Shown: piece after piece, positions 19,795-30,310 of the stretch
How the letters are laid out: every line of letters begins with the position of its first letter
Numbering within the stretch: the first letter of the stretch is position 1
DNA from: an uncultured Erythrobacter sp.
Lineage (GTDB): Bacteria > Pseudomonadota > Alphaproteobacteria > Sphingomonadales > Sphingomonadaceae
NCBI GenBank assembly: GCA_947502305.1
Contig: CANMZA010000001.1
Location: 1-64,000, forward strand
DNA: 64,000 nucleotides
Direction: 5' to 3'
The notes under the pieces: generated by a model
Databases searched by the model: none
Seen by the model: only the letters and a program-made list of their open reading frames with translations
Told to the model about the DNA's origin: nothing
Made by a program: the position numbers and the translations under genes

Positions 19795-20229
19795 ATGACA
19801 CGCTTCACCGCGTTTGCTTTGGCGATTGGATGCACTGCCGGTTTCGGCGTGATCGCATCTCCGGCGCAGGCTCAAGATTTGGTGCATACACCGATCAGCC
19901 CCACTTTTGGCGGTAACCCGTTTAATTCCAACCATATTCTTGGCACGGCCAACGCGCAGAATGACACAACCGATCCCGATGCAGTGGATCGCAACAATCA
20001 ATCCAGCATCTTTGCGCGCCAACTTGAATCGCGCTTGCTGTCGGCCTTGTCTTCGCAAATCGTCGATGCGATTTTCGGCGAGAATCCGCAGGAACAAGGC
20101 ACGATCAGCTTTGGCGGGCAGACCATCGAATTTTTCCGGTCGCTGGATGATGTGACCCTGATTATCCGCAATGACGATAATGGCGAAGAAACCCGGATCG
20201 TTATCCCGCTCTTCATTGAGGTGAATTGA
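19795..20229 (+). CDS. csgF: Curli assembly protein CsgF
   Basis: This 144-residue secreted protein has a signal peptide ending in SPAQAQ. The mature N-terminus contains the CsgF signature PTFGGNPFNSNHIL, the part that inserts into the CsgG channel, and the protein ends TRIVIPLFIEVN-like. CsgF caps the CsgG pore and couples curlin secretion to nucleation at the cell surface. Length matches E. coli CsgF (about 138). Its TGA overlaps the csgG ATG by one base (TGATG). It is the first gene of a large curli locus. Confidence 0.93.
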   Translation: MTRFTAFALAIGCTAGFGVIASPAQAQDLVHTPISPTFGGNPFNSNHILGTANAQNDTTDPDAVDRNNQSSIFARQLESRLLSALSSQIVDAIFGENPQEQGTISFGGQTIEFFRSLDDVTLIIRNDDNGEETRIVIPLFIEVN

Positions 20230-21215
20230 TGCGGGCTTTTCCTAAGATTGGCGCCAAAGTCGGATTGGCCGCCTCGCTGGCTATCGGGCTCAGCGGCTGT
20301 ATGAGCCTTGGTCAAGATGGCCGCGCGATGCTGCCAGAAGAAACCAGCCTCGCATATTTCCCAGAGGCGACGCAGACGCAAAATCTGCTGCACCAATTGC
20401 CCGGACCTCAGCGTCAGGTGGCGGTCGCGGTTTACGGCTTTAACGATCAAACTGGTCAATTCCGCCCAACAAATGGCGGCCAGACTTTGTCCCGAGCGGT
20501 GACGCAGGGTGCGAGTTCGATCCTTGCCAAGGCCTTGCAGGATGCGGGCAATCGCCAGTGGTTCACGGTGGTTGAGCGCGAAAATCTCGATAATTTGCTG
20601 AAAGAGCGCCAGATCATCGGAGAGATGCGCCGGCGTTATCTGGGTGAAGAAACAATTGATCCAAACGCTCTGCCGGCATTGTTGTTTGCAGGCGTTCTGC
20701 TGGAGGGCGGGATTGTTGGCTATGACACCAACACTGTCACCGGCGGTGCAGGCGCGGCGTTTTTGGGGATCGGGGCGCGCACGGAATATCGCCAAGATAC
20801 GGTAACGGTTTATCTGCGCGCTGTTTCTGTGCGCACGGGCGAAGTTTTGACCAATGTTCAAGCGTCCAAAACCATCGCCAGTCAGGCAATCGGCGCCACC
20901 GCCTATCGCTTCGTGGCGTTCCGCGAATTGCTAGAGGCGGAGTGGGGCATCACCTCAAACGAGCCGGACCAAGTCGCCTTGCAACAGGCGATTGAGAAAG
21001 CGGTTTACGGTCTGGTGCTGGAAGGGGTCGATCTGGGCCTGTGGCGTTTCGCTGACATGGAATCGACGCAGGCGCTGATGTCGACATATCGCGCCGAGCG
21101 AGATGGAGTTTACGACGCACGCGACGTTCAAGAAGCGGTGCGACAGGCGGGGTCTTTGACCGCGCTGACTATCGTCGAGGACGATGAAGACGAGGATTCC
21201 GAAGAGGGGTCCTAG
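20229..21215 (+). CDS. csgG: Curli secretion channel lipoprotein CsgG
   Basis: This 328-residue protein has a lipoprotein signal peptide with lipobox LSGC and, later, the CsgG hallmarks VAVAVYGFNDQTGQ, the WFTVVEREN-LDNLLKERQI region and the YLRAVSVRTGEVL strand. It forms the nonameric outer-membrane pore exporting curlins. Compared with E. coli CsgG (277 residues) it has a longer C-terminus with an acidic tail rich in Asp/Glu. The ATG at 20229 shares a base with the csgF stop; a TTG at 20226 is less likely. A strong hairpin separates it from the curlin genes. Confidence 0.95.
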   Translation: MRAFPKIGAKVGLAASLAIGLSGCMSLGQDGRAMLPEETSLAYFPEATQTQNLLHQLPGPQRQVAVAVYGFNDQTGQFRPTNGGQTLSRAVTQGASSILAKALQDAGNRQWFTVVERENLDNLLKERQIIGEMRRRYLGEETIDPNALPALLFAGVLLEGGIVGYDTNTVTGGAGAAFLGIGARTEYRQDTVTVYLRAVSVRTGEVLTNVQASKTIASQAIGATAYRFVAFRELLEAEWGITSNEPDQVALQQAIEKAVYGLVLEGVDLGLWRFADMESTQALMSTYRAERDGVYDARDVQEAVRQAGSLTALTIVEDDEDEDSEEGS

Positions 21216-21286
21216 TCAAAAGGGTTTGAAGAAGATGCGGGCCGAATAGAGATAATAGGGCGCGCATCTGGGTCGCATAAGAAAAC

Positions 21287-21318
21287 GCACGCATAGGGGC
21301 TGCAACCCCGATGCGTGC
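21287..21318 (+). promoter_or_regulatory. Strong stem-loop between csgG and the first curlin gene
   Basis: GCACGCAT (21287-21294) pairs with ATGCGTGC (21311-21318), and GGGG (21296-21299) with CCCC (21306-21309), around a six-base loop. It is followed by AGAAAA, not a U-tract, so it is more likely an mRNA-stabilising or partial-termination element than a full terminator. A second stem, CCGGCG/CGCCGG at 21346-21364, follows. Confidence 0.6.
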
Positions 21319-21406
21319 AGAAAATTTGGCGGCGATTACCTCGGCCCGGCGTTCTTTGCGCCGGAGCCATCTGTGGTCATCGCCTGAATTAACAGGTGAG
21401 GCAATT

Positions 21407-22801
21407 ATGAAGAACTACCTATACATCGCGGCATCGACGCTGGCGCTTGCTGGCGCGTTGGGCGTCAGCACATCGGCAATGGCGCAAAGCAATGACAGCA
21501 CTGTCACGCAAACCGGCACCGATAGCGATGTGACCATCACGCAGGGAGGCCCGGACGGGTTTAACGTCTCCACCGTCGATCAAAGCGCCGACAACAGCAG
21601 CGTAGTCATTGCACAAGAAGGTTTTGACCTCGGCGATCCAGCCTTGGCGACCAACACCAGCGACGTGACGCAAGCGGGCAGCGATCAATCGGTCGTCTCC
21701 ACGCAGGTGGGTGATGCCAACGGATCGACCGTCACGCAAAGCGGCACGGAGATGGAAGTGACATTGGTCCAAGGCGGGCTGGGCAACACCTCAACCGTCA
21801 GCCAGTCGGACGTAGACAATGAAGCGGACATTTTCCAAGACGGCGATGATCATTCTTCGACCATCACGCAGTCTGATAATGACGGCATCATTGATCTGGA
21901 CCAGATCGGCGTCGGTCAAACCAGCACGATCACGCAAGCCGATGACAACGACACGAATGCCGTGGTCTTGCAAACCAACGAGGACAACACCTCAACGATC
22001 CTCCAGCGCGCATCGAACAGCGACGCTTTCGTGACGCAAACCGGCCAGCGGAACACGTCAGGATTGGTGCAAGGCATTGTTTCGGACGGTCAAGAAGCGA
22101 CCATCATCCAAAGCGGCGATGACAATGTGTCGAATGTTGCTCAGGGTACTAACGGTTCTGGCCCGCTTGATGACGACAATGTCGTTTTCATTGAGCAATC
22201 GGGCAATACTAACGAAGCCGTGGTCAATCAGATCAGCGAGGAGAACTTTGCCGGTATTCTGCAAACTGGCAATGGCAATGAGGCCCGCGTCGAAAGTCAA
22301 GGCGACGGTGCGAGTTCGACAACCAACCAAGAAAATTCCGCGACGATTGAGCAATCGGGCAATGACAACTTTGCCTCCGTCAATCAGCCAGATGAAAACA
22401 ATGTCTATGACGTTTTGCAATCGGGCAATGACAACTCATCGACCGCCAATCAAAGCGGTAACGGCGATGGCGGCATGGCCTTCATCACCCAGATCGGTTC
22501 GGAGAACACATCGAGCGTGATCCAAATTGGTGCTGGCTCAGGAACGCTGAGCAATTCGGCAACAGTGTCGCAATCGGGCAGTGAAGGCGGCTCGGCGATT
22601 ACTCAGGACGGCTTCGATAACGAAGCAACCCTGACGCAATTGCTCACGTCAAACCTGGCGCTGTCTGCGATCACGCAAACCGGCAGCGCGAATGACGCGA
22701 CTGTGACGCAAGGCGGGACAGAAGATATGTCCACGATTGCGCAAACCGGTATCGGCAATTCGATCACCGTCTCGCAAAACACAATTGTGATTGCGGATTA
22801 A
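21407..22801 (+). CDS. Large curlin-repeat amyloid subunit 1 (CsgA/CsgB-like)
   Basis: This 464-residue protein has a signal peptide ending STSAMAQ. The whole mature chain consists of curlin half-repeats of the form hydrophobic-Q-x-G-x-x-N (for example TQSGTEM, IQSGDDN, LQTGNGN), roughly three dozen of them, predicting a long beta-solenoid. E. coli CsgA has five full repeats in about 150 residues, so this is about three times larger. It is Asp/Asn/Gln-rich, nearly free of aromatic residues and without Cys. It ends in SQNTIVIAD, unlike the other three large curlins. I use the ATG at 21407 after GGTGAGG; the longer frame from 21311 lacks a signal peptide. It is probably exported through CsgG and polymerised into the matrix. 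Confidence 0.88.
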   Translation: MKNYLYIAASTLALAGALGVSTSAMAQSNDSTVTQTGTDSDVTITQGGPDGFNVSTVDQSADNSSVVIAQEGFDLGDPALATNTSDVTQAGSDQSVVSTQVGDANGSTVTQSGTEMEVTLVQGGLGNTSTVSQSDVDNEADIFQDGDDHSSTITQSDNDGIIDLDQIGVGQTSTITQADDNDTNAVVLQTNEDNTSTILQRASNSDAFVTQTGQRNTSGLVQGIVSDGQEATIIQSGDDNVSNVAQGTNGSGPLDDDNVVFIEQSGNTNEAVVNQISEENFAGILQTGNGNEARVESQGDGASSTTNQENSATIEQSGNDNFASVNQPDENNVYDVLQSGNDNSSTANQSGNGDGGMAFITQIGSENTSSVIQIGAGSGTLSNSATVSQSGSEGGSAITQDGFDNEATLTQLLTSNLALSAITQTGSANDATVTQGGTEDMSTIAQTGIGNSITVSQNTIVIAD

Positions 22802-22810
22802 GAGATTGCG

Positions 22811-22838
22811 AGAGCCGCGTCAGAAATGGCGCGGCTCT
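22811..22838 (+). terminator. Hairpin after curlin gene 1
   Basis: AGAGCCGCG (22811-22819) pairs with CGCGGCTCT (22830-22838), nine base pairs, ten bases after the stop codon. There is no U-run after it. It may be a partial terminator or a 3'-end-stabilising stem that sets relative amounts of the curlins. Confidence 0.55.
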
Positions 22839-22912
22839 TGGCATTTGCGCCGCCGATCTCAGGCGGCGGGCATCAAAGTTTGAATATGAATATTTTGAGT
22901 GAGGACCAAAGA

Positions 22913-24010
22913 ATGAAGAAAACAATTTTGACCGGAGCATCAGTTTTGGCGCTTGCAATGGCCGGACCGGCTTTTGCGCAAAGCACTTCTGACGTGACGC
23001 AAACCGGCAATGGCAATGGCGCCACTGTGAACCAATCGGGTTCGAACGATGTCACGATTGAGCAGATCGGTGACAACAACGTCACGACTGCGGATCAGGC
23101 GGGCACCGATAACGAATCCACCATCATCCAATCCGGCGCTGGCCCGAACACGGCTGACGTTGATCAAGCTGGCACGGGTTCGTTTGCTGATATCACGCAA
23201 AGCGGCACCGCTGATGGCAACACGGCGACCATTGATCAGGATGCGACAACGGACACAAACTCCGGCGAAATCGAGCAAACAAGCCTGAATTCAACCGCGA
23301 CGATTACGCAATCGGGCGGCGCCAATAACGGTGCGGCAATCTTGCAAGGTGACACCACGATCCTTGGCGGCGGCGTTGCGGCGACCGACCTTTCGGATGC
23401 GGACATCACGCAAACCGGCGCGAACAACTTTTCGGTGATCGGCCAGACCGGCAACAATCAAGACGGCGACATCGAAGTCCTCGGCGACGATAATATTGGC
23501 ACTGTGCTTCAAGCTGGTTCTGATCAAATCGCACTTGTTCAAGTCTTTGGCGGCTCGAACTTGGCAAGCATTGATCAAGGCGCCGATGGCGGCAGCGCAA
23601 ACGACGCGTTCATCCTGCAGGTTGGCGATTCCGACGAAGCGGAAATCATCCAAAACAGCACCGGCAACGATGCTGATATTGGTCAAGGCGGCACGGGCGC
23701 GGGCAACTTCTCGTCCATCGACCAAGGCTTTGTCGGCGGCGCTGGCACTGGCGGCGACGACAACCAAGCATCGACCGCGCAAATCGGCTCGGGCAACTTC
23801 AGCGCGATTGCGCAAAACGCGCTCTTGGCTGGCGGTGATAACATTGCCGATGTTCAACAAGAGAACAACGACAATTCCAGCTTCATCACCCAAGAAGGCA
23901 ACATGAACTCGGCCATCGTTGGTCAGTTCGATGGCGGCAGCTCGTCGGTCATCAGCCAAACTGGCGACGGCAACAGCGTTACCGTCACTCAAGGCACACC
24001 ACCTTCGTAA
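22913..24010 (+). CDS. Large curlin-repeat amyloid subunit 2
   Basis: This 365-residue secreted protein has a signal peptide starting MKKTILTGASVLALA and cut after PAFAQ. Curlin half-repeats fill the mature part, interrupted by glycine-rich insertions (QGDTTILGGG near 150; DQGFVGGAGTGGDDN near 280). The last about 100 residues align by eye with subunit 3, and both end with a TVTQGT motif. The start at 22913 is preceded by GAGGACC. An upstream in-frame ATG (22826) has no signal peptide. It is presumably a fibre subunit exported by CsgG. Confidence 0.88.
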   Translation: MKKTILTGASVLALAMAGPAFAQSTSDVTQTGNGNGATVNQSGSNDVTIEQIGDNNVTTADQAGTDNESTIIQSGAGPNTADVDQAGTGSFADITQSGTADGNTATIDQDATTDTNSGEIEQTSLNSTATITQSGGANNGAAILQGDTTILGGGVAATDLSDADITQTGANNFSVIGQTGNNQDGDIEVLGDDNIGTVLQAGSDQIALVQVFGGSNLASIDQGADGGSANDAFILQVGDSDEAEIIQNSTGNDADIGQGGTGAGNFSSIDQGFVGGAGTGGDDNQASTAQIGSGNFSAIAQNALLAGGDNIADVQQENNDNSSFITQEGNMNSAIVGQFDGGSSSVISQTGDGNSVTVTQGTPPS

Positions 24011-24027
24011 GACGGATGTGAACAATG

Positions 24028-24052
24028 CCGGGCGAGCGGGGGGCTCGTCCGG
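24028..24052 (+). terminator. Hairpin after curlin gene 2
   Basis: CCGGGCGAGC (24028-24037) pairs with GCTCGTCCGG (24043-24052), with one G-U pair and a short G-rich loop, 18 bases after the stop. It is followed by TGTTTCCC, only weakly U-rich. Confidence 0.55.
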
Positions 24053-24127
24053 TGTTTCCCGGCCGGGAACGATTGGCCCCGAGAGCAACACAATGCAGCT
24101 CAGGGCCGACACTAGGAAGGCAAGAAT

Positions 24128-25777
24128 ATGAAAAAGACGATTTTCGCAGGGGCATCATTCCTTGCTCTGGCATCAGCAGCACCGGTTTTAGGCCAAGCGG
24201 TCACGCCAGCAGAATGCGCAGGGGCAACCAATTGCAGCGTTCTCGATCAGGATGGCGACACTTTGGTCGGTGACGTCTCTCAAACAGGCACCGGCAATGT
24301 GTCGGATATTGAGCAAGACGGCTCCACTTTGACCGCCACGGTCACTCAGGGTGCGGACGATAACATTTCCAACATCGCGCAAGACGCATCGGGTGCGGGC
24401 GCGAATGGTTTTACCGCCACAGTGACGCAAACCGGCGGCGGCGACTCAATCGTCAGCCAATCGGGCGCAGGCGCGAACAACACCGGCTTTACCGCGACCG
24501 TCAATCAGGCTGGCAACAGCGCGTCGGACATCGCGCAAACCGCAACTAATGACGATGCGGACATTTTCAGCGCGACCGTCAATCAAACGGGCGATGACCA
24601 TTCTTCGATCATCACTCAGGCGGATCAGGGCGGCGGCTCAAATGACGGTAACCTTACCGCGCTTGTGACGCAGACCGGCACCAATAACAGTTCTGACGTG
24701 ATGCAACTCAATCGTCAGCAAAACGCGACGGTGACGCAATCCGGCACTGACGGCACGTCGACTGTGTTCCAAGAAGGTCGCAGCAACACTGCGACGCTCA
24801 ACCAGTCCGGCACGACCAACGCATCCAGCATCTCTCAGGATGATGCCGGCGGCGTCGGCCAAACCGCAACGGTAAACCAGACAGGATCAAACAACACCTC
24901 GGACGTGTTCCAAGACGGCCGCAATGCTGGCGTGAATGATGGCAACAACTTTGCCAATGTCACTCAGGACGGCACCGACGGTTTTGCAACGGTTGAGCAA
25001 ATCGATCAGGCACGCGGCGACACTGCGACCATTACGCAGGGCGCGCTGACTGTCGGTAATGACGCCGCAATCGTTCAAACTGGCGACGCAGTTGACGGCC
25101 CGCCTGACACAGCCAATTCGGCTACGATCACGCAATCTGGCGGCAATGGCAGCTTCTCTGGAATCATTCAGGGTGACACCACGGCTATTGGCGGCGGTAG
25201 CGTTACTGGTGCCAGCAATGCTTCTGCAACCTCAGAGCAAAATGGCGACGATCTGGAATCGTTGATCCTGCAAGGCGGCGATGCGCAAATCGCATTCGTC
25301 ACGCAGATCGGCACTGGCGGCGAAGCAATTGTCGCTCAGGGTGATTTTGGCGGCAATGGCAGTGACGCTGACATTGATCAGTCGGGCACCAATGGCGAAG
25401 CGGTCATCTTCCAAAACAGCGACGGCAGCATTGCCGCCGTTATCCAAGGCGGCGGTGACAGCAATTCCAGCTTCATCGACCAAGGCTTCGCAGGCACCGG
25501 CACAGGCGCAGATGGCAATTTGGCATTGGTTGAGCAAAACGGCTCAAACAATGACAGCGACATCCTGCAAAATGCGGTCGATGTTGGCGGATTGAATGTC
25601 GCTGACGTGCTGCAAGAAGGCGATGACAATACCAGCCTGATCGAACAGGAAGGTTCCACCAATTCTGCAACAATCATGCAGTTTGATGGCAGCACATCGA
25701 ATGTCTTCCAAGACGGCACGGGCAATTCGACCACTGTGACGCAGGGGACCGCGCCTCTGCCACCAGTGGCGATGTAA
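24128..25777 (+). CDS. Large curlin-repeat amyloid subunit 3
   Basis: This 549-residue secreted protein has the signal peptide MKKTIFAGASFLALASAAP. The early mature part has two Cys (AECAGATNCSVL), unusual among curlins and possibly a disulfide. The rest is curlin half-repeats with Q, G and N in register, plus the glycine-rich insertions QGDTTAIGGG and DQGFAGTGTGADGN, matching those of subunit 2. It ends TTVTQGTAPLPPVAM. Subunits 2 and 3 are therefore paralogues from a local duplication, with subunit 3 gaining extra N-terminal repeats. A strong hairpin follows the stop. Confidence 0.88.
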   Translation: MKKTIFAGASFLALASAAPVLGQAVTPAECAGATNCSVLDQDGDTLVGDVSQTGTGNVSDIEQDGSTLTATVTQGADDNISNIAQDASGAGANGFTATVTQTGGGDSIVSQSGAGANNTGFTATVNQAGNSASDIAQTATNDDADIFSATVNQTGDDHSSIITQADQGGGSNDGNLTALVTQTGTNNSSDVMQLNRQQNATVTQSGTDGTSTVFQEGRSNTATLNQSGTTNASSISQDDAGGVGQTATVNQTGSNNTSDVFQDGRNAGVNDGNNFANVTQDGTDGFATVEQIDQARGDTATITQGALTVGNDAAIVQTGDAVDGPPDTANSATITQSGGNGSFSGIIQGDTTAIGGGSVTGASNASATSEQNGDDLESLILQGGDAQIAFVTQIGTGGEAIVAQGDFGGNGSDADIDQSGTNGEAVIFQNSDGSIAAVIQGGGDSNSSFIDQGFAGTGTGADGNLALVEQNGSNNDSDILQNAVDVGGLNVADVLQEGDDNTSLIEQEGSTNSATIMQFDGSTSNVFQDGTGNSTTVTQGTAPLPPVAM

Positions 25778-25791
25778 TCGAACCCAAATGG

Positions 25792-25827
25792 AAATTGCCG
25801 GGTGGGTGGGGGCTCACCCGGCAATTT
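25792..25827 (+). terminator. 13-bp perfect hairpin after curlin gene 3
   Basis: AAATTGCCGGGTG (25792-25804) pairs perfectly with CACCCGGCAATTT (25815-25827) around a ten-base loop. The stem ends in AAATT/AATTT and is followed by CTTTC. This is the best terminator-like hairpin in the curli locus and looks bidirectional. Confidence 0.7.
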
Positions 25828-25901
25828 CTTTCAAAAATGCGGGCGCTTCGCCCACATTTGCAACACCGCCCGCAAGGGCTGGACTTCAAGAGGCAATGAT
25901 C

Positions 25902-27908
25902 ATGAAATCCGTTAAGCTCACACGAACAATTTATACCGGTGCATCCATTCTTGCACTTGCCGTAGCGGCTCCTGCTTTCGCGCAGAGCACGTCGACCATC
26001 AGTCAAACCGGCACCGACAACAGCGTCGGTGTTGATCAGACCGGCAGCGGCAACGATTCCGAAATCGTCCAGGACGGCACCAGCATGAATGCTGATGTGA
26101 CGCAGGACGGGGACAACAACCTCTCCGGCATTTTGCAGGATGATGACGGCGTCGATATCGGCGATCCATCGGCCATCGTTAGCCAAACTGGCGATTCCAA
26201 CGAATCCAACATCGTGCAATCATCTACTGGCGATTCGGCTGGCCTGATGACCGCGAATGTGGATCAGACCACGGACGGAAACTTCTCTGGCGTGATCCAA
26301 ACCGCCACCGGCACAGCCGGCGACGTGGATGCTGACGTGATGCAAGCAAATGGCGCAGGCTCTGTCATTACGCAGTCCAATTCCGCCGCAGGTGCGGCAT
26401 CGGTAACGGCGATTGTGACGCAAGATGGCATTAGCTCATCGCAAATCTCGCAAAACGTTTCTGGAGGCACCAATGCGGTTTTGGCGACCGTCAATCAAAC
26501 CGGTGATGGCCATGGGTCATTGATCAATCAGGACGGCACTGGCCGCGCGCTTACGGCGCTCGTGACGCAAACCGGCGATAGCAATATATCGCAAGTCGAT
26601 CAGCTGACCGCTTCTGGCGGTACGGCCACTGTCACGCAATCTGGCACCAATGGCACTTCGACCATTTTGCAAGATCGTTTCAGCCTCAACGCGACGCTGA
26701 ATCAAGACGGCACTGGCAACAATTCTGACATCATCCAGGACGGTCCGTTCGGTTCGACGGTGACCGTCAATCAGAACGTCGCGAACACGGCTGGCGGCGG
26801 CAACGATTCCTTCGTTCAGCAGGGGCCAACCAATGACGGTGTGGGGATCAGCGCAACCGTCAATCAAGAAGGTTCAAACAACGATTCTGACATCAATCAG
26901 GACGGCACAAACAACACGCTTTTCCGCAATGTGGACGCGACGGTCACGCAATCGGGTGATGGCAACACTTCGGATGTCGATCAGACCAATCCGGGTGAAA
27001 ACGTGGATGCCATTGTCGACCAATCGGGCGACGGCAACTTCGCCTTCGTCACTCAAGCCGCCGATGGTTCTGATGGCCAAGGTGACGGAAATCTGGCGGA
27101 TGTGTCACAAACAGGCGGCGGCAACACTGCCGATGTCGACCAGACCGGAACTGGCGCGGGCAACACCGCAACAACCGTGCAAAACGGCACCGGTAGCACC
27201 GCGACGGTTCAGCAAACTGCCGGCGCAAATGGCGAAGATGCCTTTATCTTCCAGCAAGGAAGCGCTGACACCAGTTTTGCCACGATCAATCAAACCGGCG
27301 ACGGAAACCAAGGTTTGATCGACCAAAGCGGCGGCAGCAACAATTCGTCGACGATCACCCAATCTGAGGACGATGAGCTGGCTGAGAACATTCAGGACGG
27401 CAGCGACAACGTGTCTGGCATCACGCAAGCGGGCTTTAACGGGACCGTGTTTGTTGATCAGATTGGCGGGGCCAACCAGTCGTCGGTTCTTCAAGACGGT
27501 GATCTTGATGGCAACACGACCAATGTCAGCCAAACCGGCGATATGAACATCAGTACGATCAGTCAGGGTATCAACAGCCTTGCCGAAGAGAACACCATTG
27601 ATCTTGTTCAGAACGGTAACGGCAACCAAAGCACAATCCTTCAAGCGGATGGTGGCTTTACCGACGGTAACTCGATCGACATTCTGCAACAGGGTGACAA
27701 CAATGTCAGCTCCATCGATCAGGATGGTTCCAACAATGTTATCGACCTCGATCAGCTCGCGACCGGTGCAAGCAGCACAATCAATCAGGCTGGCAGCACG
27801 CTGAGTGCGACAGTTGCGCAATATGACGATGCCCATGTTTCATCTGTCAGTCAGACTGGCAGTGGTAATATGACAATTGTCACTCAGGGCACTCCGCCAG
27901 CGCCGTAA
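25902..27908 (+). CDS. Large curlin-repeat amyloid subunit 4
   Basis: This 668-residue protein is the largest curlin here. The signal peptide starts MKSVKLTRTIYTGASILALA and ends PAFAQ. The mature chain is curlin half-repeats (DQTGSGN, NQTGDGH, TQSGTNG and so on, over fifty) with occasional glycine/asparagine-rich insertions, and it closes with SGNMTIVTQGTPPAP, like subunits 2 and 3. I choose the ATG at 25902, eight bases after GAGG, over ATG at 25896 (two bases after). It would make a beta-solenoid several times longer than E. coli CsgA. Confidence 0.88.
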   Translation: MKSVKLTRTIYTGASILALAVAAPAFAQSTSTISQTGTDNSVGVDQTGSGNDSEIVQDGTSMNADVTQDGDNNLSGILQDDDGVDIGDPSAIVSQTGDSNESNIVQSSTGDSAGLMTANVDQTTDGNFSGVIQTATGTAGDVDADVMQANGAGSVITQSNSAAGAASVTAIVTQDGISSSQISQNVSGGTNAVLATVNQTGDGHGSLINQDGTGRALTALVTQTGDSNISQVDQLTASGGTATVTQSGTNGTSTILQDRFSLNATLNQDGTGNNSDIIQDGPFGSTVTVNQNVANTAGGGNDSFVQQGPTNDGVGISATVNQEGSNNDSDINQDGTNNTLFRNVDATVTQSGDGNTSDVDQTNPGENVDAIVDQSGDGNFAFVTQAADGSDGQGDGNLADVSQTGGGNTADVDQTGTGAGNTATTVQNGTGSTATVQQTAGANGEDAFIFQQGSADTSFATINQTGDGNQGLIDQSGGSNNSSTITQSEDDELAENIQDGSDNVSGITQAGFNGTVFVDQIGGANQSSVLQDGDLDGNTTNVSQTGDMNISTISQGINSLAEENTIDLVQNGNGNQSTILQADGGFTDGNSIDILQQGDNNVSSIDQDGSNNVIDLDQLATGASSTINQAGSTLSATVAQYDDAHVSSVSQTGSGNMTIVTQGTPPAP

Positions 27909-27934
27909 TCTGGCCGAGTGAAATCAGCTTAGGG

Positions 27935-27961
27935 CGGGGCGAGATCGAAAGACTCGCCCCG
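27935..27961 (+). terminator. Hairpin after curlin gene 4
   Basis: CGGGGCGAG (27935-27943) pairs with CTCGCCCCG (27953-27961), nine base pairs with a nine-base loop, 26 bases after the stop. It is followed by TCTGCC, not a clear U-tract, so termination may be partial. Confidence 0.58.
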
Positions 27962-27988
27962 TCTGCCTGAAACGAGTATGATAAGAAT

Positions 27989-28657
27989 ATGAGAGCGATA
28001 ATGAGAAACCCAACCAAACTGCTGCCCAACATGTTGCAAGCCGCCGCGGCCTGCGCATTGCTGAGCGCGGCAATGGCTTCTCCGCTTGCCGCTCAAGATT
28101 TCACAGATATCGATGTGCCTGCTGCAGGCGCGGAGAATGTTTTTGTTGAGCAGATCGGGAACGGCAACGAAGTTGAACTCGATCAAGCCTCAAACAGCCA
28201 AACCGCTGAGCTGAGCCAAGACGGGAACAGCAATTTTGCGATTATCGATCAAACCGATGACGGCGCACATTTTGCCCGCGTCACTCAGGCGGGCGATGAC
28301 AATTCTGTGTCCCTGACTCAGGCTGGCGACGGTCAAGCGGCTGCGATTTTGTCGCAGACCGGCACCAACAACAATGCCTCGCTGTTCCAGCGCGATAACG
28401 GCATTATCGGCAGCGCGGCTGGGATCGTGCAAACCGGTTCTGACAATTCGCTGGTGCTGATCCAAGATGGGTCGGATAATCAGGCGCGCCTCGTTCAAAA
28501 TGGCGATGCCAACACGATGACCGCGACGCAGCTGGATTCTGGCAACCGGCTCGACTGGGTTCAGGACGGCACCGGCCTTTCCGATTTGGAGATCACCCAA
28601 TCGGGCGGCGCGGCGATGCAAATCACTCAAACCAACACCGCAGGCACAGGCCGCTGA
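27989..28657 (+). CDS. Smaller curlin-repeat protein, candidate nucleator (CsgB-like)
   Basis: This 222-residue secreted protein has a signal peptide ending SPLAAQ, then about 15 curlin half-repeats (VEQIGNGN, SQDGNSN, TQAGDDN, LQNGD-type). Some are divergent and include charged residues, as is usual for CsgB-type minor subunits. Size and position at the end of the curlin series make it the best candidate for nucleator or fibre anchor, but there is no sequence proof that it is CsgB rather than another major subunit. An alternative ATG at 28001 has a closer GAGAG. The next ORF begins directly after its stop. Confidence 0.8.
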   Translation: MRAIMRNPTKLLPNMLQAAAACALLSAAMASPLAAQDFTDIDVPAAGAENVFVEQIGNGNEVELDQASNSQTAELSQDGNSNFAIIDQTDDGAHFARVTQAGDDNSVSLTQAGDGQAAAILSQTGTNNNASLFQRDNGIIGSAAGIVQTGSDNSLVLIQDGSDNQARLVQNGDANTMTATQLDSGNRLDWVQDGTGLSDLEITQSGGAAMQITQTNTAGTGR

Positions 28658-28701
28658 CCCGCGCGCTGACCCATCCGCTGACACCCGCGCTGACACCAGC
28701 C

Positions 28702-29556
28702 TTGGGCGCGGCGGCGGCGAAATGCGCTGTGACAGGCGCGCTGCTTGGTGCATCGCTGAGCATGGCAGTCAGCGCATTTGCGCAAAGCAATCCGCATAAT
28801 GTGGCGCGCGGCGATGCCGCTTTTGTTGAGCAAGCTCCAGAACAAGTGGGTGGTGCGCAGGAGGCTACTGCGGCTGCCCCTGCTCCCGAACAAGGGCGCG
28901 AGCAGCCACAAAATCTGCAACCGGCCCAAGTGGACGCCTCTTCCAAAGTCTATTTCCCTGAGCCCATCACACCGCAAGCCACCGCGCGCGCGCGCGCTCA
29001 AACACGGTCGGCTCAGCAAGAGCAATTGCCGAGCCAGCCAGCACCCGCCAATGCGGCGCTGTCACAAATTCCCAGCGGTCAGCAGGGCGGCCAAGACGGG
29101 CAGAATGTTGCCCAATTGACCGAAGGCGACACCAGCAGCGCCTTGGCGCAATTGAGCGCGGCGGAACGGCAGGTCCTGCTCGAAGCGGTCGAAGGAACCG
29201 ACATTTGCGAACGCGGCAGCGATATTCCCGCATTGCAGGAATTGTGCGCAGGGCGGATCGAAACGCGCTCGGCTGAATTCACACAAGAAACCAGGGGCTC
29301 TGCCGAAGACAATTTGCTCGGTGGCGGACTAGACAGCGCCCGGATCGCCACGCTGGAGGCCGCGATTGCTAGGCTGGCCCGCAATTCAGGCAGCTCGGAT
29401 GATTTTTCAAACCAAGTTATCGCGTCCGTCGCGCTTGGCTCTGCGACGTTGACGGATGCTCAGGCGACCTCTGCCGAAGGAGATCCGACGGCTGATTTGA
29501 CGCCTGAGACGCAGGCTTTCGTCAATGCGATTGTGCAGCAATTGGGCGGCAATTGA
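28702..29556 (+). CDS. Unknown secreted protein of the curli locus
   Basis: This 284-residue ORF has no recognised domain. With the TTG at 28702 it has a good signal peptide (GALLGASLSMAVSAFAQ). A Pro/Gln/Ala-rich disordered stretch follows to about 150, then a helical region with two Cys (ICERGSDIPALQELCAGR) likely to form a disulfide, and a C-terminal helix. The start is doubtful. TTG 28702 lacks a Shine-Dalgarno, and the frame stays open back to a CTG at 28654 that overlaps the stop of the previous gene (CTGA). It lies between a curlin gene and csgH, so a role in curli assembly or anchoring is an inference from position only. Confidence 0.65.
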   Translation: MGAAAAKCAVTGALLGASLSMAVSAFAQSNPHNVARGDAAFVEQAPEQVGGAQEATAAAPAPEQGREQPQNLQPAQVDASSKVYFPEPITPQATARARAQTRSAQQEQLPSQPAPANAALSQIPSGQQGGQDGQNVAQLTEGDTSSALAQLSAAERQVLLEAVEGTDICERGSDIPALQELCAGRIETRSAEFTQETRGSAEDNLLGGGLDSARIATLEAAIARLARNSGSSDDFSNQVIASVALGSATLTDAQATSAEGDPTADLTPETQAFVNAIVQQLGGN

Positions 29557-29578
29557 GACGGATATGAGGAACAGGTCG

Positions 29579-29962
29579 ATGCGAAACTTTGTGCAAAAAC
29601 TCGCCGCCGGAGTGCCGGCATTGGCGATTTTGGCCGGGGGCACTGTCGGAGGCGGCGGCGCGGCGCAAGCGGGATCGGGCGGGGAGCCTCAGCAAGCACT
29701 ATCGCTCAATGTTGCAGAGACGGCGGGCAATGTGGAAATTCAGCTGATCGCATTGTCATCGGTGACGCAGCAAATCGAATATGAGATCGAGCTGATCGGC
29801 AATTCCCGCGCCCGGCACAGCGGCAACACGTCCATTCCGGCGGGTGACCGGCAGGTCCTCTCTCGCCTCACCACCAATGTTACTGGCACATGGTGCGCGC
29901 GCGTGAATGTGACCGAAGCAAGCGGCGAACAATACACTTTGACCGCTGGCGAATGCGAATAA
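29579..29962 (+). CDS. csgH: Curli-associated chaperone CsgH (CsgC-like)
   Basis: This 127-residue secreted protein has a signal peptide ending around GAAQAG and a C-terminal immunoglobulin-like domain. The domain carries the CsgH pattern YEIELIGNSRARHSGNTS, then LSRLTTNVTGTWCARVNVTE. CsgH is the alphaproteobacterial counterpart of CsgC, a periplasmic inhibitor of premature curlin amyloid formation. Two Cys are present (WCAR and GECE). I use the ATG at 29579, nine bases after AGG within GAGGAACAGG; the ATG at 29564 is an alternative. It closes the curli locus. Confidence 0.82.
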   Translation: MRNFVQKLAAGVPALAILAGGTVGGGGAAQAGSGGEPQQALSLNVAETAGNVEIQLIALSSVTQQIEYEIELIGNSRARHSGNTSIPAGDRQVLSRLTTNVTGTWCARVNVTEASGEQYTLTAGECE

Positions 29963-30082: not shown

Positions 30083-30310
30083 GGCGTCTCTCGCGGGAGA
30101 GACTGAATGCGAGAAGTCGCAAACGGCGCCGAAGGAGCAACCGCCTCGGAAACTCTCAGGCAAATGGACCGCGAACAGGCATAGGCACTCTGGAAAGAGT
30201 GGCAGCATTGCGCCGAGTGAGCGTGCGCCGTCACCACCGAAGGGGAAGGCGCCGCGCCGTTTTGGGCGGGGCGCTAAGCTCTCAGGTAATCCCGACAGAG
30301 GGGGCAGGAA
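30083..30310 (+). promoter_or_regulatory. Tandem glycine riboswitch
   Basis: Two glycine aptamers lie in tandem in the leader of the gcv operon. Aptamer 1 (about 30086-30208) has the conserved GGGAGAGACTG, GCGCCGAAGGAGCAA and AACTCTCAGGCAAATGGACC elements. Aptamer 2 (about 30209-30310) has GCGCCG...CACCGAAGGGG and GCTCTCAGGTAATCCCGACAG. This is the known glycine riboswitch that turns on glycine cleavage genes when glycine is abundant. The short linker is typical. The expression platform would be the about 50 bases before the TTG start. Confidence 0.92.

Follow-up and report, generated by a model that had tools for sequence, protein, structure and literature searches.

The window analysed here, a stretch of 64 000 nucleotides (nt) from an uncultured Erythrobacter sp. 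(contig CANMZA010000001.1), carries at positions 19795–29962 a genuine curli (type VIII secretion) operon of the alphaproteobacterial kind that lacks CsgE and bears CsgH. Its genes, listed below, comprise csgF and csgG, four giant curlins (giant meaning 300 amino acids (aa) or more), a small curlin, csgH and, between the last two, a gene without described family, designated gene X. We consider it highly probable that this CsgE-less system combines a conserved core with changing giant curlins, and that X belongs to the core and would act on curlin export or nucleation.

csgF, 19795–20229, plus strand: 144 aa, partner of the CsgG channel; PF10614, 100.4 bits (cut-off 25.8)
csgG, 20229–21215, plus strand: outer-membrane secretion channel; PF03783, 197.8 bits (cut-off 20.8)
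Giant curlin c1, 21407–22801, plus strand: 464 aa; PF07012 in 14 stretches
Giant curlin c2, 22913–24010, plus strand: 365 aa; PF07012 in 13 stretches
Giant curlin c3, 24128–25777, plus strand: 549 aa; PF07012 in 15 stretches
Giant curlin c4, 25902–27908, plus strand: 668 aa; PF07012 in 20 stretches; predicted 52-strand beta-solenoid
Small curlin c5, 27989–28657, plus strand: 222 aa; PF07012 in 6 stretches; CsgB-like, putative nucleator
Gene X, 28702–29556, plus strand: 284 aa, between small curlin and csgH; probably secreted, no described family
csgH, 29564–29962, plus strand: predicted periplasmic anti-aggregation chaperone; NF041112, 35.9 bits (cut-off 35)

The Pfam and NCBIfam scores, together with the phmmer match of the 668-aa curlin c4 to the curli chain of PDB 8c50 (E 3.5e-25), exclude chance as an explanation of the locus. 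Whole-protein PF07012 scores of its five curlins ranged from 64 to 162 bits, with c2 taken one codon early and c4 one codon late in the Pfam queries; the lengths given above use the start codons as read. The ATG start of csgG at 20229 overlaps the stop of csgF, and its product, which carries a lipoprotein-like LSGC near the N-terminus (spotted by eye), was the only CsgG match at E ≤ 1 in the 3.25 Mb genome. For csgH the start lies at 29564 or 29579, i.e. 7 or 22 nt past the X stop, the longest open reading frame (ORF) beginning at 29525. The initial annotation of this DNA had described a csgF-csgG-csgH core with four giant curlins and a smaller one; coordinates, genes and lengths were all confirmed, and the genes it listed were right, although X and at least four curlin genes elsewhere in the genome had been left out.

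CsgE had been stated not to be encoded here, and this holds well past the window, as the best match in the whole genome reached 11.2 bits against a cut-off of 25 and none of the 114 genomes of the genus gave a match at E ≤ 0.01. Given this genus-wide lack, the tasks of CsgE must be either unneeded or carried by another protein. No CsgD was recognized on reading the ORFs near the locus, a profile search for this regulator not having been made.

Within the genus, the distribution of gene X follows that of CsgF. CsgF was found in 42 of the 114 genus genomes and in 13 of 149 genomes of the family sample (the window genome being counted in both), and X in 38 genus genomes, comprising 38 of the 42 with CsgF and none of the 72 without it. 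The four CsgF-positive genomes devoid of X are G004 and G278, which have another gene in its slot (loci L075 and L092), G259, where the contig ends (L085), and G013, which is 74% complete. In the family sample X was present in 11 genomes, ten of them among the 13 with CsgF; the eleventh match (G062) is weak, at 23.5 bits. In all, 53 loci were annotated, namely the window and 52 stretches from relatives (40 of the 41 other CsgF-positive genus genomes, G013 left out, and the 12 others of the family sample). Only the strand carrying csgF or X was annotated, and curlins were recognized by an in-house repeat pattern, so that short or degenerate ones may be missed; L085 and L111 are cut off by contig ends, and G013 as well as the class genome G460, whose score is below cut-off, lie outside the survey. 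X has the small curlin immediately before it and csgH after it in 41 of the 53 loci, and the same order holds for L098 and L110 provided that csgH is given a late start within its frame.

The X protein itself resembles nothing described. The window protein matched no Pfam family at E ≤ 10, including the curlin family PF07012, and no NCBIfam family at E ≤ 1. When 40 members were compared with Pfam, seven families were hit by one member each (best E 0.0097), and no member matched CsgE (PF10627) at E ≤ 0.1. Searches of PHROGs with 30 members (E ≤ 0.01) and of plasmids gave no match, and the PDB yielded no significant relative, the only two matches having E-values of 1.7 and 2.4. The start codon is uncertain, being a TTG in a frame that stays open further upstream. 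Judged by eye, the N-terminus is signal-peptide-like, and X is probably secreted; its N-terminal half is of low complexity, and the C-terminal half is conserved, with C169 and C182 and the motif GTDIC..LC..RIETRS.EF. An AlphaFold2 model (mean predicted local distance difference test score (pLDDT) 60, predicted template modelling score (pTM) 0.24) consisted of short helices and otherwise irregular chain. We take X as an undescribed curli accessory protein, a core component without described family.

In the genus, X is confined to genomes with the secretion genes; as it also lies between the putative nucleator and the chaperone, it is the best candidate within the operon for the tasks of CsgE. 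In its strongest form, this would make X a new curli core family replacing CsgE in Sphingomonadales, a periplasmic adaptor delivering curlins to CsgG and shutting the vestibule of that channel, with CsgE-less operons each having evolved a secreted adaptor of their own; we regard this as unlikely. The genus-wide lack of CsgE and the co-occurrence of X with CsgF speak for it, and separately evolved adaptors would also explain why the small genes after the last curlin differ across lineages. L075, L092 and L113 have in the X slot a gene with a shared motif R.RGQQPTPE..AREIGPD (L075:9990-10550, L092:2637-3227 and L113:11764-12288), and L152, L153 and L155 have other small genes after the last curlin. 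Against it, X has no sequence similarity to CsgE, its poor model does not suggest a folded cap, and any similarity of X to the slot genes is doubtful; in L154 and L156 no slot gene could be made out. The slot genes of L075, L092, L113, L153 and L155 matched no Pfam family at E ≤ 0.1. Using hmmsearch, the X profile gave 8.6 bits with L155 and 5.8 bits with L153 as compared with 5.7 bits for the best of 120 shuffles (20 for each of the six genes), the other four scoring among the shuffles, and hhalign probabilities were between 0.2 and 5.3. In L075, L092 and L113 the small curlin next to the slot gene is of a type of its own.

X would suit a fibre-associated or anchoring role just as well as one of the CsgE type. 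X might be a secreted protein made together with the small curlin that anchors or terminates the solenoid and does not act at the channel, a possibility that we consider rather unlikely. Its place directly after the small curlin and before csgH would suit such a function, as would conserved glutamine-centred motifs (Q122, Q138 and Q150) that, by eye, faintly recall half a curlin repeat. Neither PF07012, as mentioned above, nor a profile of the giant curlins recognizes X, however, and a relationship between X and curlins was rejected on the latter comparison (hhalign probability 0.1, E 0.43).

The curlins speak for the second part of the proposal, a set of long and changing subunits. The giants contain recurring N-x-[AS]-x-[VI]-x-Q motifs at a commonest spacing of 11 residues, and in the counted repeat pairs the core-facing residues of the two strands are nearly alike. 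Similar repeats with alike core residues in both strands have been described for the fibre-forming CsgA of Pontibacter korlensis (PDB 8c50; Sleutel et al., 2023, PMC10192328), with which the window curlins share the regular, nearly centrosymmetric N-psi-psi-Q repeats and the predicted beta-solenoid; here and below, published systems are compared on the available parts of the cited texts. Among the locus curlins the fold was examined on c4 alone, whose AlphaFold2 model (mean pLDDT 79.7, pTM 0.77) has 52 strands. VIA-align of this model over 71 chains retrieved by Foldseek placed 8c50 first, with Z 40.0, a root mean square deviation of 8.3 over 339 residues and 29% identity, followed by a runner-up with Z 17.5; the remaining solenoids of that list (Z 7.6 to 17.5) are taken as sharing the architecture only. 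The long beta-solenoids foreseen in the initial annotation are thus supported on c4. All locus curlins are acidic, c1 having 62 aspartate and glutamate versus 4 lysine and arginine residues.

Across the 53 loci, csgF was present in 52, csgG in 51, X in 48 (a count that takes in two remnants, L118 and L119) and csgH in 47, and the usual order was csgF, csgG, giant curlins, small curlin, X and csgH. This order occurred with four giants, as in the window, in 12 loci, with three in 16 and with two in eight. Among the 49 loci having csgG together with X or csgH, the number of giants was zero in 1, one in 3, two in 13, three in 18, four in 12 and five in 2, and the 141 giants of these loci measured 324–886 aa (median 568). 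An operon of the same kind was found in Erythrobacter longus, E. dokdonensis, E. donghaensis, E. colymbi, Erythrobacter sp. NAP1, Qipengyuania flava and Sphingopyxis italica, with csgF beyond the examined stretch in some. The four-giant arrangement, for which a survey of curlin number and size had been suggested at the outset, is therefore not special. In L118 (G184), the start of csgF is fused to the end of X at 1962–2582, with no csgG or curlin detected on that strand of the 20-kb stretch; this is likely the scar of a deleted curli operon. L119 (G203) likewise holds remnants only. The X-locus of a metagenome-assembled genome labelled Microbacterium sp. has the same genes and sizes as that of Qipengyuania flava (L149 and L150), and the label is probably wrong.

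Reciprocal best hits between the nine curlins of the window genome and the 52 related loci separated the small curlin from the giants. The former, c5, had a reciprocal best hit in 48 of the 52 loci and is in this respect the conserved subunit, a CsgB-type nucleating function being putative. The giants c1 to c4 had one in only 6, 12, 10 and 13 loci, respectively. For curlins encoded away from the locus the figures were 35 for one of 779 aa, 6 for one of 708 aa and zero for the other two; with the 779-aa curlin having partners in 35 loci, the giants of relatives are often closer to an unlinked than to a linked curlin of the window genome. In most relatives, the core of CsgF, CsgG, small curlin, X and CsgH is conserved, and the giants are variable in their number as well as in their order and sequence.

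The two nearest relatives (L104/L130 and L073/L120) have orthologues of all five curlins at 50–75% identity, with c3 and c4 swapped in order in L130 and L120; in L130, identity is 74% for c1, 51% for c2 and 75% for c3. The ratio of non-synonymous (dN) to synonymous (dS) substitution against L130, by a rough Nei-Gojobori estimate in which several dS values are close to saturation, was 0.136 for c1, 0.290 for c2, 0.076 for c3, 0.116 for c4 and 0.146 for c5, and the locus curlins look to be under purifying selection. Against L104, which is from the same genome as L130, dN and dS were 0.035 and 0.534 for csgF, 0.046 and 0.904 for csgG, 0.256 and 1.542 for X and 0.186 and 1.014 for csgH. It could be argued that the number of giants is copy-number noise, made by recent tandem duplications without functional meaning, given that number and order vary widely and that c3 and c4 have changed places. 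We consider this most improbable, as the orthologues are 50–75% identical compared with 27–46% in the best alignments of paralogues within the window genome, which together with dN/dS ratios of 0.08–0.29 indicates that the curlin copies are old and have been kept. From such sequence evidence, a mixed-subunit amyloid matrix built of the locus curlins is plausible.

The window genome contains at least nine curlins and one CsgG. At least four of these curlins are unlinked to the operon and lie at three places far from the only csgG:

Unlinked curlin pair, C1:2100442-2104140 (L010): 779 and about 381–392 aa
Unlinked curlin, C1:1443042-1444226 (L011): about 340 aa
Unlinked curlin, C2:1002058-1004184 (L012): 708 aa

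A further match at C1:442360 (L013) is weak, at 15.2 bits, and below cut-off. Unlinked curlins were also detected at E ≤ 1e-5 in five of seven hand-chosen CsgF-positive relatives (G020, G030, G021, G248 and G209), and the same threshold gave no curlins in any of three hand-chosen relatives without CsgF. In G020 the csg locus is devoid of giants, and four (639–972 aa) are encoded elsewhere; G030 has an unlinked curlin of 1115 aa. In six genomes (the window genome, G020, G021, G030, G209 and G248) an OmpA-like gene adjoins unlinked giant curlins (L010:3159-4118, L161:8623-9549, L162:5113-6105, L164:9985-10890, L157:6040-6960 and L163:4965-6083); PF00691 was confirmed in both of those tested, and the product is possibly a surface or peptidoglycan anchor. 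At L012:9592-10173, a gene divergent from the 708-aa curlin is weakly YbjN-like (20.6 bits, cut-off 22).

Giants of such length and divergence, some of which lie away from csgG and next to an OmpA-like gene, might be thought of as stand-alone surface adhesins using the CsgG channel and not as fibre subunits. This we find improbable, as the recurring motifs, most often spaced 11 residues apart, are like those of the fibre-forming Pontibacter CsgA, and c4 resembles 8c50.

Several observations weigh against the proposal of a conserved core containing X and CsgH that serves many solenoid curlins. CsgH exceeds the NF041112 cut-off by a marginal 0.9 bits, phmmer found no match for it in the PDB below E 0.46, and csgH was not detected in L108, L109 and L115, though X and the small curlin are present there. 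In the class sample X was found in 1 of 385 genomes, which is the window genome itself, and CsgF in seven, six of them above cut-off; with no more than six candidates scored in each genome, that search may overlook weak relatives. The genes in the X slot of L075, L092 and L113 have no detectable similarity to X, which can thus be replaced. Two of the seven CsgF-positive relatives (G250 and G004) have no unlinked curlins at E ≤ 1e-5. Finally, Foldseek with the c4 model returned no PDB match at E ≤ 0.001 and listed 8c50 at rank 43 with E 7.4. L108, L109 and L115 have in addition a small curlin-like gene before or overlapping the CsgB-like curlin. For CsgH itself, the two cysteines are far apart (WCARV...GECE) without a CxC, which is the CsgH criterion of Taylor et al. 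(2016; PMC4838910) in the available text.

Established E. coli curli biology (CsgG, CsgF, CsgB) and the work on CsgC/CsgH chaperones, as far as available in PMC4838910, suggest how such a system might function. The curlins would cross the inner membrane by Sec, be kept unfolded in the periplasm by CsgH and exit via the CsgG channel. At the surface, CsgF and the small CsgB-like curlin would capture them, with the small curlin nucleating growth, and the giant curlins would polymerise end to end into long acidic beta-solenoids. X, probably secreted, may take part in curlin export or nucleation, either within the periplasm or at the CsgG channel. One CsgG appears to serve many giant curlins, both linked and unlinked.

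The operon shares with the E. coli csgBAC and csgDEFG operons the CsgG channel, CsgF, curlin-repeat subunits and a CsgC-like chaperone. In contrast, it forms a single one-strand gene cluster, has the additional gene X and lacks CsgE, and the one major subunit of E. coli curli has 151 residues. It resembles the csgH-bearing curli of Alphaproteobacteria, which according to Dueholm et al. (2012; PMC3521004, available parts) lack csgC, csgD and csgE, have csgH in many cases and contain in some genera up to six csgA/B homologues, with a CsgA of up to 529 aa and 22 repeats. The same source finds CsgA and CsgB distinguishable only in Gammaproteobacteria and describes a variable CsgA versus a size-constant CsgB, as for the giants and the small curlin here; it also reasons that other proteins must take over from the missing Csg proteins. 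The curlin ORFs described here are longer, the maximum being 668 aa within the locus, 779 aa for the window genome as a whole and 1115 aa in one relative. As to X, placed after the last curlin and before csgH, no such gene is named in the available text of PMC3521004, the terms 'unknown gene' and 'hypothetical' being absent from it. As to the chaperones of PMC4838910, the match to the CsgH subfamily and the two distant cysteines are alike, whereas here the score is just above cut-off and X separates the last curlin gene from csgH. Repeat numbers of 4–62 and as many as 30 curlin copies in a genome have been reported (PMC10192328); that survey counts copies per genome, and neither unlinked subunits nor partners in the operon like X are discussed in its available text. 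Among the matches listed in a literature search (judged by title and opening abstract, in a library lacking most subscription journals and without supplements), there was no work on Erythrobacter or Sphingomonas curli or on an X-like gene.

A terminator scan gave 12 sites as compared with 13.0 in shuffled sequences, and a promoter scan seven as compared with 4.4 (standard deviation 2.1). Hairpins 3' of the giant genes, noticed by eye as possible attenuators, were dropped, as terminators were no commoner than in shuffles. A glycine riboswitch (RF00504, 59 bits) lies downstream of csgH at window positions 30084–30181, and no other RNA family reached its gathering threshold between 16000 and 34000. 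The ORFs that follow it look like glycine-cleavage genes.

The initial annotation had seen in this locus a candidate for an under-described system. Its layout is ordinary among relatives, and curli without CsgE and CsgD as well as many and long curlins have been published; what stands is gene X, which is not listed there. Many giant curlins are hence not new as such, and X within a CsgE-less system is the new part. The export of curlins by alphaproteobacteria that lack CsgE has been a question since at least 2012 (PMC3521004, available parts), and X offers a concrete candidate for testing: in the genus it was found nowhere without the secretion genes, its dN is far lower than its dS, and it is undescribed in the four libraries of families or structures that were searched. 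With a conserved secretion and nucleation core set apart from interchangeable giants, the system lends itself to testing how a single channel and a single nucleator may cope with many long amyloid proteins. If X does replace CsgE, it could allow a single CsgG to handle nine or more curlins, giant and small, from genes scattered across the genome.

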